Below are positions 20,527 through 41,056 of a DNA stretch of 64,000 bases, one piece after another. Under the pieces are notes generated by a model that saw nothing but the letters and a program-made list of their open reading frames with translations, was not told the origin of the DNA and did not search any database. Every line of letters starts with the position of its first letter. Position 1 is the stretch's first letter. Both the position numbers and the translations under genes were made by a program. This DNA comes from Allofournierella massiliensis (GTDB taxonomy: Bacteria; Bacillota; Clostridia; Oscillospirales; Ruminococcaceae), in NCBI RefSeq assembly GCF_021531255.1, contig NZ_JAFBIO010000001.1, positions 186,001 through 250,000 of the forward strand, written 5' to 3'.

Positions 20527-20892
20527 TCAGGGCTCCACACCCTGGATCTCCAGCAGCTCCACCGCCGCCTGTCCCCGCTCCGTCAGGGCCATGCTGCCAC
20601 GGCAGGGATAGGCCCCGTAGGCGGCGTAGTCGAAATTCACCAGCGGCAGGTCATAGTCCACCCGGATGAGCCGCTTCAGCTGCAGGCCAACGATGGCGGC
20701 ACTGAAGTCCGCCGCCTCCTCCAGATAGACCGGCGTCTCCGAGTCCCACCGCCGGGCCACCGGCAGAAAGGGGATCTGGGCGAAGCGGCCCAGCAGCTCC
20801 ACCTCCTGCTCCGTCAGCTCCAGCGCGCCGCCGCCGCAGCCGCCGCAGCTGCCGCAACTGCCGCAACTGCCGCAGTCATGTCCGCATCTCAT
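20527..20892 (-). CDS. Small cysteine-rich winged-helix-like protein
   Basis: 121 residues. The N terminus MRCGHDCGSCGSCGSCGGCGGG has six Cys, five of them spaced CxxC, which suggests metal or Fe-S binding. The rest resembles a winged helix: LELTEQEVELLGRFAQIPF, then LQLKRLIRVDYD and a C-terminal GSMALTERGQAAVELLE. The start was set at 20892 because AAAAGGAGG lies 9 bases upstream; the earlier ATG at 20901 abuts that site. The IS30 element ends only about 36 bases upstream and probably separates it from its original promoter. I do not recognise a named family; a metal-sensing regulator is a guess. Confidence 0.75.
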   Translation of the reverse strand: MRCGHDCGSCGSCGSCGGCGGGALELTEQEVELLGRFAQIPFLPVARRWDSETPVYLEEAADFSAAIVGLQLKRLIRVDYDLPLVNFDYAAYGAYPCRGSMALTERGQAAVELLEIQGVEP

Positions 20893-20927
20893 CGCCGTCA
20901 TCCTCCTTTTCCAGATCCTCGACGCAA

Positions 20928-22192
20928 ATTGCAAGTGCAAGTTGGACACGTGCACGGTAGAACTTAGTGAATCAGAGCGTCGGTCAGGATGGAAGCCGCA
21001 GGCTTCCGTCCTGGGCGATGCTGCCGCAGCCTTCGGCTGCGTAAACAGAGTCGAGGAACTCGTCAAACAGTTCCTCCGGGGTGCGGTAGCCAAGCTTTTT
21101 GCGAGGCCGTCCGTTCAATTCATCAGCTGCAGCCAAGATATACTCAGCAGAGAAAGCCTCAATGGACACACCCTTCGGAACAAAGGTTCGAAACAGCCCG
21201 TTGTGGCGTTCGTTTTGGGGACGTTCCCACGAGGTGTAGGGATGCGCAAAGTAGACTGCACAGCCCCAGCTCTCGACCTGACTGAACGCAGAGAACTCTG
21301 AGCCGTTGTCCACGGTAATGGTCTTGAAGACCTGTGAGAACTTTTCTCCGAATTCTTCCCTGAGTGACTGCATGGCGTTCAGAACGGAGTCTGCATCCTT
21401 GCCGGGAATCCGGATGGCAATATAGTTCTCCGTTTTCTTCTCCAACAGGGAAGGACAACAGCCTCTTTGCCGCCCCTTTTGCCGACCACGGTGTCACCTT
21501 CCCAATGACCTTCCTCGATGCGCAGAGCCGCAATCTCAGGCCTCTGGGAAATGTCTGTGCCGAAGCTCTTCTTGTGTTCACGGGGCTTGGAGCCCTTGTG
21601 CTGCTTGCGTTTCATGGCTTCGGGCAGTTCTATCACAGACAAGTCAAGGCTGCCTGCCCAGACCTCATTGTAAAGCGTGTGGGTGCAGACCATCTCCTCT
21701 GCTGAAAACAGCCCGTGCAGACGAGCATAGCCGACGCAGGCATCCAAAGACCACTTGTGTTCTTTGACCTGTTCCATTATCCAGCGAATGAAGCGAGTGC
21801 AGTGACAAATTCGGTGTGGTTTCCGAGAACGCTTCCTGTTCGCCCTGTAGGCCGCTTCTCCACGCCTTGCCGAGTATCCGGGCTTCCTGCCCTTGCTGCT
21901 CTTTCGGGGTGGTGTGCCGCGCTTTAGCTCGTTCCCAACGGTGGTTGGTGAACATCCGATTGCTCTGGCAATGGCTCTGTTCGTGTAGCCAGCGTTCTTG
22001 AGATGCTGGATTGCGCCTCGTTCCTCTCGCTGTAAGTGCTGTCCTTTCTTGCGTTCTACCAATTCTGTGATATAATCTTGGCAGTCCATAGTGATTGTCC
22101 TCCCTTGGAAGAAGTTGTGTGCTAACTTCATTCTACCATGTGGGGAAAATCACTATGGATTTTTTCTTAGGTGTCCAACTTCATTTTACAAT
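20928..22192 (-). mobile_element. IS30-family insertion sequence
   Basis: About 1265 bp. The ends form imperfect inverted repeats: ATTG...AAGTTGGACAC at the left against ATTG...AAGTTGGACAC (reverse complement) at the right, 17 of 22 bases matching, with the inner 11 identical. The transposase reads leftward. CGAC occurs just outside the right end and a few bases outside the left end; I cannot confirm it as a target duplication. Confidence 0.85.
20984..22131 (-). pseudogene. IS30-family transposase, frameshifted
   Basis: Two overlapping frames together make one IS30 transposase. The first (22131 down to about 21450) has the helix-turn-helix (NRAIARAIGCSPTTVGNELKRG) and the first catalytic Asp (GHWEGDTVVGK). 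The second (about 21445 to 20984) has the second Asp (TITVDNGSEF) and the Glu (PQNERHNGLFR). The join lies at about 21444-21455, where one base appears to be missing: EAVVL should continue into a ...LEKKTENYIAIRI segment. All DDE residues survive, so the loss could be recent; programmed frameshifting is less likely because no clear slippery heptamer is seen. Confidence 0.85.
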
Positions 22193-22252
22193 CGACCTTT
22201 GGAAATCTTTGTATGACTTTTAATGAAATTCATGGTGAATTGATGTTAAGAA

Positions 22253-22365
22253 CAGACTAACTGAACAACTTATGATTAGTCACGGGGAATAGCTAAACGA
22301 AGCAGAAATCATAGTGGTTCTTGCCTCGTTTTATCTCCCCTAATGAATAAATCTACATTAGTCTG
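22253..22365. other. Nested hairpin, possible structured RNA
   Basis: Successive pairings share one axis: CAGACTAA (22253) with TTAGTCTG (22358), ATTA with TAAT, GGGGA with TCCCC, AAACGA with TCGTTT and GCAGAA with TTC-TGC, around a loop ATCATAGTGG. No promoter was recognised, so strand and transcription are unknown. Confidence 0.4.
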
Positions 22366-22481
22366 CCCTAACCTATTCTCCAGGAACACAAAAGGGAACT
22401 TGTAGTATATTTATAATGGTTTTTTTCCAATTCGTTGAGTAGCCGACGATGTAGGTGGGTTTTCGTTGAGGTCATACTTTC

Positions 22482-22607
22482 AAAACGACAAAATTCTTCT
22501 CTCTATCTAAATTATATATTTGACTTTCCTTTTTCAAAAGCGACAAAATGTCACAAAACTTTTTGTCGTTTTACGTGTACTCGAAATGTTTTGTCGAAAC
22601 GACAAAA
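22482..22607. repeat. TTTTGTCG motif group (right), including a palindrome
   Basis: AAAACGACAAAA at 22482-22493, variant AAAGCGACAAAA at 22537-22548, TTTTGTCGTTTT at 22561-22572, and the perfect palindrome TTTTGTCGAAACGACAAAA at 22589-22607. A weaker TTGTCGCTTATTTT follows at about 22653. Confidence 0.75.
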
Positions 22608-22702
22608 GTGTGCCATCCATTATTTCTCAAGGGTTTCAATGGTTCCGAAGTATTGTCGCTTATTTTCCACTTAACGAAAAATTTTCTATTCAACAAACCA
22701 TA

Positions 22703-22735
22703 CCGGAAGGAAAAAATTTCCTTCCGGCATTTTTG
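22703..22735 (+). terminator. Terminator in the AT-rich intergenic region
   Basis: CCGGAAGGAAA and TTTCCTTCCGG stem, then CATTTTTG. There is no gene directly upstream, so it may end an unannotated transcript from 22.2-22.7 kb. Confidence 0.75.
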
Positions 22736-22846
22736 CTATTTAAAAAGGGAAAAAAGGATGCGCTTATAGTGGAAAGGGAGAAAAGAATGTGATAAAATGG
22801 TGAAAAAGAAAAGGGATCGGCCCTGGATCATCCGGAGGAACGAGAA

Positions 22847-24262
22847 ATGAAGAAAAAAACAGCGGTTGTTTCACTGATATTGGGTACAGCTGCGGCCCTG
22901 GCTTTGTCGGGCTGCGGCACCATGACACCGGAAAAGCTGGCTGATAAGGTCAAAAAGGCAGTGGAGGAGACTCCCTACAGCCAGGCAGACGTGGATATGA
23001 CCATGGATATATCGGCGACGGAGCCCACCACCGGGATCGAGATGGATCTGGGCATCCAGATAAACGGCCAGGTGCGGGTGAGCTATGAGCCGAATACGGT
23101 TTATGAAAACCTGGATCTTACCATGGAAATGATGGGCTTCCGGGTGCCCCTGAATGTGGAACTCTATGTTCTGGAAGAGGACGGGAAAACCGCGAGCTAC
23201 AGCAACACGGAAGGCAGCTGGCTGCGGTCGGAAATCGATGCCTCCGCCCAGCAGGACGGGAGCCTTTCCATTGACATCTGGGCTCTGGACCCGGAACAGC
23301 TTTCCATTGATGAGGAAGTGACCGAGCTGGAAGGAAGCCCGGCGACCTGCCTGAAGGCGAATGTCACCGGCGAGGATGTTGCCCAGGCAATGAGCTTTTT
23401 GTTCAGCAGCCTGGAAGAGAGCGGCAGTCTGCTGGACGAGGGCATGCTGATGGATGAGGATGTGCAGGGATCTCTGGATGAGATTGATTGGGAAAAAATC
23501 TCCGCTCAGGTGACCACTTATGTGGACACGGAGACCTATCTGCCCATGCGGGAAGAAATTTCCATCAGCGGCTTGGATGAAGCCCTGGCAGGTATGGTGG
23601 GGAACAGCGATGTTTCCATCAACATCCGGCAGGCAAATGCCACGGTGAACTATACCTCCTATGACCCGGTGGATCCCTGCGTGCTGCCGGAGGGGGCCAA
23701 GGAACAGGCCGCTCAGAACGAGCGTCTGCTGGCCGGCAACCCGGATAACGGCGATGGCACCTTCACCATTCAGGAAGGCGGCTACTATGCCAATATCCAG
23801 GCCCCGGAAGGCTATGTGCTGGACTACACCAATTACGATGAGGTGGATTTCTACAGCGAGGAGCTGGACCGGCTGGTCTGCTATCAGATGTGGACGAGTG
23901 ATGACCGCAACGATTTCTTCTTCTGGGATATGGTGGACCAGGCGGCCTACGAGTATACCGGAGATATGTTCGGCCCCGAACGGATGCCCAGCATCGAAAT
24001 CGTGGATACTGCGAATTTCAGCTTTGCGTTGGACGGTTTTTCCTACCAGGGGAACTATGCCGGCTACAATTACTATGCCTGGACCAATGTGGATGAGGAA
24101 TATTACAGCTGGGTACTGGTGAGCATCTACGACGGCGGTGATACCATGGATTCCTCCATCACCCAGGAGGAGATCCAGAGCCTGCTGGAGCAGGTGAACC
24201 CGTATCAGCTGCCGGCGGCGCAGGAGGAGATGGAAGACATTCTGGATCAGCTGGAGCTGTAA
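22847..24262 (+). CDS. Secreted lipoprotein, DUF6612-like
   Basis: 471 residues. Signal peptide with a lipobox LSGC (Cys23), so it is anchored to the outer face of the membrane. The mature N terminus (TPEKLADKVKKAVEETPYSQADVDMTMDI) and the beta-rich body (VSYEPNTVYENLDLTMEMMG, SYSNTEGSWLRSE) resemble the DUF6612/LolA-like lipoproteins of Clostridia. The C-terminal half is acidic and rich in aromatics. No catalytic motif is visible. CGGAGGA lies 7 bases before the ATG. It is followed by its own terminator and precedes the rpoBC promoter. Function unknown. Confidence 0.85.
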   Translation: MKKKTAVVSLILGTAAALALSGCGTMTPEKLADKVKKAVEETPYSQADVDMTMDISATEPTTGIEMDLGIQINGQVRVSYEPNTVYENLDLTMEMMGFRVPLNVELYVLEEDGKTASYSNTEGSWLRSEIDASAQQDGSLSIDIWALDPEQLSIDEEVTELEGSPATCLKANVTGEDVAQAMSFLFSSLEESGSLLDEGMLMDEDVQGSLDEIDWEKISAQVTTYVDTETYLPMREEISISGLDEALAGMVGNSDVSINIRQANATVNYTSYDPVDPCVLPEGAKEQAAQNERLLAGNPDNGDGTFTIQEGGYYANIQAPEGYVLDYTNYDEVDFYSEELDRLVCYQMWTSDDRNDFFFWDMVDQAAYEYTGDMFGPERMPSIEIVDTANFSFALDGFSYQGNYAGYNYYAWTNVDEEYYSWVLVSIYDGGDTMDSSITQEEIQSLLEQVNPYQLPAAQEEMEDILDQLEL

Positions 24263-24338: not shown

Positions 24339-24684
24339 CCTATGGGCAAATTGCCCGCAAGGAATGTCGAGGGCGCCAAAAAGCCCGGTGGGCAGGAGGG
24401 GACAGGGGAGAAAACCACTGCAAAAATGCACACGACCCCGGGCGTATCGCACTCGGAAAAAATCGGAACAAAAAGCCGGAAAATGGCTTGACACAGCCGT
24501 TTTAGGGTGGTATACTGCCATAGTATAGCAAAATGGATAAGAGCGCCCTTAAACATACCATTTGCACAAAAGATTTTGCAAAGTTTGTTAAAACTGCACA
24601 AACAACAGGGGAGCCCCCCGGTGTGTTTCAAGCGCTTTTCTCAAGATGGCAGTAAAAATAGAAAGAATAGGAGTGGTCGCTTTT
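24339..24684 (+). promoter_or_regulatory. rpoB upstream region with promoter
   Basis: TTGACA (24488), 17 bases, TATACT (24511-24516) gives a transcript with about a 160-base untranslated leader. The leader is A-rich with no clear terminator. There is no rplJ-rplL or other ribosomal gene upstream. Confidence 0.85.
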
Positions 24685-40980: not shown

Positions 40981-41056
40981 GGACGGTTAGCTCAGCTGGT
41001 AGAGCATCTGCTTGACGTGCAGGAGGTCACAGGTTCGAGTCCTGTACCGTCCACCA
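40981..41056 (+). tRNA. tRNA-Val (anticodon GAC)
   Basis: A 76-base cloverleaf with encoded CCA: acceptor GGACGGT/ACCGTCC, D arm with AGCTCAGCTGGTAGAGC, anticodon arm with loop TTGACGT (anticodon GAC, reads GUC/GUU), and T arm GGTTCGAGTCC. It stands alone between its own promoter and terminator. Confidence 0.97.

Follow-up and report, generated by a model that had tools for sequence, protein, structure and literature searches.

Organization of the Locus

The hairpin that occasioned this analysis lies at positions 22253–22365 of the window, by which we mean the whole analyzed stretch of 64,000 nucleotides of Allofournierella massiliensis DNA. To its left lies an insertion element, which we take to be of the IS30 type, and right of position 22405 an AT-rich spacer leads to a lipoprotein gene (22847–24262; DUF6612 just under its cut-off) and to a long open reading frame (ORF) at 24646, presumably rpoB (Table 1). 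The ends of the insertion element are fixed by a second copy in the same genome (G000:C11:96504-97780), which carries 2 differences and is flanked by a long, 11-bp target duplication, AAAAGTTAAAG. The element holds two overlapping transposase-like ORFs: The first (21379–22131) contains an HTH_38 domain and gives two weaker helix-turn-helix matches besides, and the second (20984–21445) matches no Pfam family. The window copy sits exactly at the break of the cassette remnant described below and has no target duplication, so a single simple insertion does not account for its two flanks, and this points to a deletion at the element. The frame that opens at the junction is very short, and its assignment to a lost cargo gene is possible.

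Two features in the neighborhood are recorded in their own right. A small ORF on the minus strand (20527–20892), which starts 29 bp from the insertion element, encodes a Cys-Gly repeat (CGSCGSCGSCGGCGGG) and matches no Pfam family. Upstream of the lipoprotein gene, at 22486–22607, three direct CGACAAAA boxes, spaced at 55 and 59 bp, occur together with two inverted TTTTGTCG boxes and a promoter-like TTGACT...CAAAAT; the arrangement looks like an operator array.

Table 1. Features assigned at the relic and its borders (positions in the window).
Feature	Position	Strand	Basis or remark
Insertion element	20921–22197	−	Right end abuts the cassette remnant; ends fixed by second copy
Possible last 20 codons and stop of a lost cargo gene (FGNLCMTFNEIHGELMLRTD*)	22198–22260	+	Open frame from insertion element junction to TAA
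Decayed intrinsic terminator of the cassette, stable core of the hairpin	22294–22334	+	Alignment with six right ends; covariation
Conserved right-end module (CTAATGAATAAATCTACATTAG ... to element tip)	22335–22405	+	71–86% identity to parts in six genomes; 27-sequence alignment
Right terminal inverted repeat CTCCAGGAACACAAAAGGGAACTTGTAG	22378–22405	+	Tip mutated from consensus ...GGGAATTGGGAG
Separate terminator-like palindrome, outside the element	22700–22730		Between remnant and lipoprotein gene; near-perfect, no obvious gene directly upstream

Folding of the Hairpin and Conservation of its Inner Stem

The preliminary description had reported nested complementary blocks in excess of chance expectation, and the observation holds: The blocks nest as described, and the predicted folding energy of 22253–22365 amounts to −29.4 kcal/mol on the plus strand (z −4.06; z −3.63 in a repeat run) and −35.7 kcal/mol on the minus strand (z −4.76), with none of 200 shuffles as good on either. 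Most of this significance originates from the inner stem at 22294–22334, which alone reaches a z of −3.56, while the remainder of the conserved end, 22335–22405, gives −0.24. The outer helix, CAGACTAA/TTAGTCTG, has a duplex energy of −11.3 in the window against a shuffle mean of −10.1 and is equaled by 30% of 300 shuffles; in six relatives, 2, 8, 55, 57, 78, and 81% of shuffles pair equally well. The helix was rejected as a conserved feature, as it beats 95% of shuffles in only one of the six (L098). A covariance-model search, which had been proposed as a check, found no Rfam family at the hairpin at curated thresholds; the sole match in the whole window is a tRNA at 40981.

The core at 22294–22334 can be aligned to terminators from six related right ends, and the compensatory changes for which the preliminary description had called are present in this inner stem. 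Over the seven sequences on which the comparison is based, the covariation score is 0.50 against 0.304 ± 0.054 after shuffling (1 of 500 as high), with a partner strand slid by +1 still scoring 0.425; pairs changed on both sides number 7 versus 4.7 in shuffles (35 of 500 as high). An alignment of 27 right ends yields no consensus stem at the terminator, and, inspected by eye, its two groups of terminators show no base-to-base correspondence. The stem in the window is also weaker than in the relative L090 (−11.8 versus −32.0 kcal/mol), relative to which G to A changes disrupt two pairs, while another two have become the weaker G-U.

A terminator at 22703 had been proposed as the end of a non-coding transcript comprising the hairpin. 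It exists as a sequence, with 11 pairs and the tail CATTTTTGCT, although nothing ties it to the hairpin, and it lies 298 bp past the element; a 4.3-kb scan contained seven terminator-like sites where shuffles led us to expect 5.2. Within its own genome the hairpin region has one good match, which is itself. A weak second match (E 0.46) located 55 bp from the second insertion element copy was set aside as probably due to chance.

A Conserved Right End in Other Genomes

When the region 22193–22720 was compared with 297 family genomes, 65 of them matched at E ≤ 0.1, mostly in short pieces, and six genomes besides its own (G166, G078, G020, G104, G116, G045) matched within 22323–22418 at 71–86% identity. 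A 26-base pattern from this end, allowing ≤3 mismatches, occurred in 5 of 396 family genomes, the own one included, whereas the reversed control occurred in none of the 396 and shuffles of the window gave no chance match. Among the GTDB species genomes, a 21-base pattern retrieved 54 loci, with about 2 expected by chance according to an arithmetic estimate; going by record titles, 31 belong to Oscillospiraceae and 3 to Lachnospiraceae, and by eye three (L043, L072, L092) resemble chance hits, with L045 uncertain. At most loci the similarity stops after ...GGGAATTGGGAG, and the downstream flanks are rarely alike. The right end in the window attains a local-alignment score of 40 and differs from the consensus mainly at its tip.

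A search for the ends in 21 genomes found them in 20, all of which had been picked as carriers, with up to 13 ends in a single genome (G412) and no hit of the reversed control throughout; at ≤2 mismatches, the genome of the window contained none. Phage and plasmid collections gave no match to 22193–22846, a 141-base stretch over a right end retrieved four plasmid records, all at E 5, and four exact repeat patterns had 0 matches in 2.9 million viral contigs. In two genera (L020/L101 of G116, and L058) we noted ORFs immediately preceding right ends that, named by eye, are putative sigma-factor and anti-sigma-like genes.

Complete Cassettes and Their Target Duplications

Upstream of the right ends, at a distance of 187–2309 bases in the first set, a second shared end, GTCCCAATTCGACTTTGTGTTCCCGG, was found, which repeats the right end in inverted orientation. 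The terminal inverted repeats are imperfect and about 25 bp long (GTCCCAATTCGACTTTGTGTTCCCGG / CTCCCAATTCCCTTTTGTGTTCCCGG). Pairing left with right ends over all loci produced 52 pairs, of which six were dropped as chance, nested, or decayed (L084, 307 bp; L050, 375; L114, 823; L079, 2025; L151, 495; L068, 1480); the 46 elements kept, mostly from draft assemblies, measure 143–3539 bp. Here, identical sequences under several locus identifiers were counted once and near-identical ones (L047, L075) separately.

The 8 bp on either side of these elements agree at all eight positions in 21 cases, at seven in 13, and at six or fewer in 12, so that 34 of 46 agree at seven or more positions, compared with a mean of 0.51 and a maximum of 4 in 1000 permutations of the flanks. 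The insertion sites are scattered and the target duplications AT-rich. In 22 of the 46 elements a terminator-like hairpin lies no more than 55 bases from an end (10 at the left, 13 at the right), whereas each of 18 control offsets gave 0–4 of 21–46; proximity to terminators is enriched, with a general preference for intergenic gaps as a confounding factor.

Near-identical cassettes occupy different positions: L047 and L075, which lie at different sites with the duplications ATAACCAA and TAAACTAT, respectively, share a 608-bp cassette at 99.5% identity. L089, a third copy, matches L047 at 99.7% over 608 bases, and its left flank is a different one.

Cargo Genes and Shared Modules

An ORF of at least 70 amino acids is present in 41 of the 46 elements, and the longest one reads from the left to the right end in 37 of these 41, a near-uniform orientation. 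For the cargo scan, up to three left-to-right ORFs of at least 70 amino acids were taken from each element, which gave 50 proteins from 39 elements, the other seven containing no such ORF. A Pfam match at E ≤ 0.001, in some cases under Pfam's own cut-off, was obtained for 25 of the 50, and no transposase family was among the 50 scanned proteins. GNAT acetyltransferases occur in seven elements (L049, L088, L134, L136, L144, L154, L155), HTH_3 regulators in L006, L084, and L133, VanZ-like proteins in L093 and L162, DUF3781 in L087 and L183, and a NUDIX protein, a GyrI-like protein, a PRK-like kinase, and an ABC transporter once each. Expression signals flank this cargo: A strong terminator-like hairpin is found near the right end in 26 of 43 elements versus 10 of 43 mid-element controls, and a promoter-like site (≥10/12) within the first 300 bases in 8 of 40 leaders, with 2.4 expected.

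Cassettes with unrelated genes have their outer parts in common. The first approximately 150 bases are shared by L046, L050, L076, and L134 (80–88% identity), and the last 230–268 bases by L076, L088, L114, and L115 (77–89%). At one chromosomal site in the genomes G397, G400, and G415 (L137, L151, L152), flanks, leader, and trailer are kept, and two genomes have one gene and the third another, the boundaries of the exchange lying at about the start and stop codons. This evidence for a swap comes from one site in three genomes with decayed ends, outside the 46 elements, and the replacement in place could be due to recombination between the constant modules.

In addition, cassettes seem to fuse, since the 3' ends of L051 and L168 are the 482–483 bases that end L054 (91–94% identity), and the terminal piece of L133 shares 85% identity with L138. 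In L068 the layout is left end, gene, right end, gene, right end. The largest cassette, L133 (474–4013, 3.5 kb), comprises an XRE regulator, an ABC transporter, and a small protein that stands alone as cassette L138; from its composition, L133 is evidently a composite cassette.

Proposed Mechanism and Candidate Mover

Intact relatives consist of a left inverted repeat, a leader in which a promoter can sometimes be recognized, one to a few genes, in many cases a terminator, and a right inverted repeat, all enclosed by an 8-bp duplication. Inverted repeats together with duplications of a fixed 8 bp imply a DDE transposase. As no scanned cassette carries a transposase, this enzyme would be encoded elsewhere, recognize both ends, and move the cassette in trans; genes may be exchanged by homologous recombination between the constant modules, and the cassette's own terminator may insulate the expression of the cargo. 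For the copy in the window, we picture that the insertion element landed in or beside the cassette and that a deletion at this element then took the left end and most of the cargo.

The search for the mover covered two transposase families. PF12762 (IS1595-type) was found in none of 12 carrier genomes, and PF00872 (IS256-type) in two overlapping sets of carriers (5 of 16 and 6 of 21), with no cassette repeat at ≤7 mismatches at any of 20 PF00872 loci. Multicopy insertion sequences are often lost from draft assemblies, and for this reason a missing transposase weighs little. Three IS256 copies in G404 have 8-bp duplications, and their TTTGTGT core is preceded by 15 bases compared with 13 in the cassette ends. 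The duplication length and the nearly equal depth of this core led us to consider an IS256/Mutator-like enzyme as the mover, a guess by analogy of repeat layout that we regard as rather doubtful.

Interpretation of the Window Copy and Alternative Readings

The hairpin is very probably the decayed terminator together with the right end (22294–22405) of a mobile gene cassette whose left end and most of whose cargo were lost by deletion at the insertion element. The window copy consists of a right end only and has no target duplication of its own. Its left end was sought on both sides of the insertion element, where the best scores were 13 and 16, matched by 76% and 27% of shuffles, compared with 38–64 for true ends. 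A left end suspected from CAATCGACCTTTG beside the insertion element was rejected, as the second copy of that element shows that most of these bases are its own sequence. With no left end and a terminator stem weaker than that of L090, the copy at 22198–22405, its left part missing, is by these sequence features an immobile relic.

Four other explanations were weighed against this one. In the first, the hairpin would be an independent structured non-coding RNA, transcribed as far as the 22703 terminator; this would accommodate a fold that beats all shuffles, the covarying inner stem, and the terminator sequence itself, and the hairpin does bear on a transcript end. A separate RNA gene is nevertheless very improbable: The conserved unit is a terminator plus about 70 downstream bases, conservation halts at the element tip at 22405, corresponding right ends stand behind unrelated genes elsewhere and are flanked by 8-bp target duplications, Rfam has no match at the hairpin, and the outer helix is at chance level in the window and exceeds 95% of shuffles in one of six relatives. 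An ordinary terminator of a lost host gene, its likeness to a mobile element being incidental, would explain why a decayed terminator is present; this reading is contradicted by the 27-sequence and six-terminator alignments, by the next 71 bases, whose match to mobile right ends extends to an exact boundary, and by the 26-base pattern, absent from window shuffles and from the reversed control in 396 genomes, and we consider it extremely unlikely.

The two remaining readings both accept a mobile element and are very unlikely in our judgment. The family does include complete elements of 143, 187, and 231 bp, so the remnant might be a complete short non-coding miniature inverted-repeat transposable element (MITE) of about 210 bp with both ends, located beside an unrelated insertion element, yet its best left-repeat score of 16 falls short of the range of the 46 true elements, 27% of shuffles are as good, and the matching letters lie mostly inside the insertion element. 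Integron-like cassettes, mobilized through a 3' recombination site by a site-specific recombinase, would be in line with gene cassettes in nearly fixed orientation, with the shared 3' module, and with the repeated gene and right end in L068, whereas inverted repeats at both ends and 8-bp direct duplications are the mark of transposition, and the sites are scattered with AT-rich duplications. Read as a decayed terminator and right end of a cassette, the hairpin itself is ordinary, and the family found through it is worth following.

A Proposed Family of Expression Cassettes and Its Relation to Known Elements

For the family as a whole we tentatively propose, at slightly less than even chances, a widespread and undescribed group of transposable expression cassettes in gut Clostridia, in which constant 5' (repeat plus leader) and 3' (terminator plus repeat) sockets hold unrelated genes that are swapped in place, fused into multi-gene cassettes, inserted preferentially beside terminators, and moved by a transposase that they do not carry. 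If true, this would amount to an integron-like exchange of genes built on a DDE transposon, and it would offer gut Oscillospiraceae and Lachnospiraceae a route for passing on regulators, acetyltransferases, hydrolases, and transporters that needs no phages, plasmids, or integrons. With its conserved repeats, the family could easily be counted and the transposase found. The window copy, a dead remnant, has value only as a pointer to this family.

Integron gene cassettes likewise move genes as units, in a fixed orientation and with a constant 3' site; their attC site is recombined by an integrase and no target duplication arises. The present cassettes differ from them in having two transposon-like ends, target duplications, and scattered sites. 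They resemble IS256/Mutator-type elements in their 8-bp duplications and in a TTTGTGT core near the same depth, and differ from IS256 in that no PF00872 transposase was found in the scanned cassettes or between matching ends in the carriers searched; IS1595 is likewise set apart, PF12762 being absent from all 12 carrier genomes.

The closest counterparts are mobile insertion cassettes such as MIC231 of Bacillus cereus and mic-qnrD, which are described as inverted repeats around passenger genes with no internal transposase gene, with a target-site duplication (2 bp in mic-qnrD) and with their own expression signals (PMC3913671). Like these, the 46 elements combine two inverted repeats, passenger genes, and a target duplication with the lack of a transposase inside; unlike them, they have other repeats and a duplication of 8 bp (against the 2 bp of mic-qnrD), and they add constant leaders and trailers with exchanged genes, composites, and a frequent position beside terminators. 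By repeats, duplication, passenger gene, and transposase absence, the family as read from its sequences qualifies as mobile insertion cassettes, for which the cognate transposase would be the missing proof; the window copy, with its right end only, lacks the second repeat that belongs to this definition. Among openly licensed papers we found no published description of these repeats, nor of cassettes of this kind in Oscillospiraceae, and the family looks undescribed so far.

Bacterial MITEs, finally, the subject of a review (PMC10969869), are usually defined as short non-autonomous elements that have terminal repeats and lack coding capacity. Measured by this definition, the smallest cassettes (143–231 bp) are MITE-like, whereas the family at large departs from it with an ORF of at least 70 amino acids in 41 of 46 cassettes and lengths of up to 3.5 kb.
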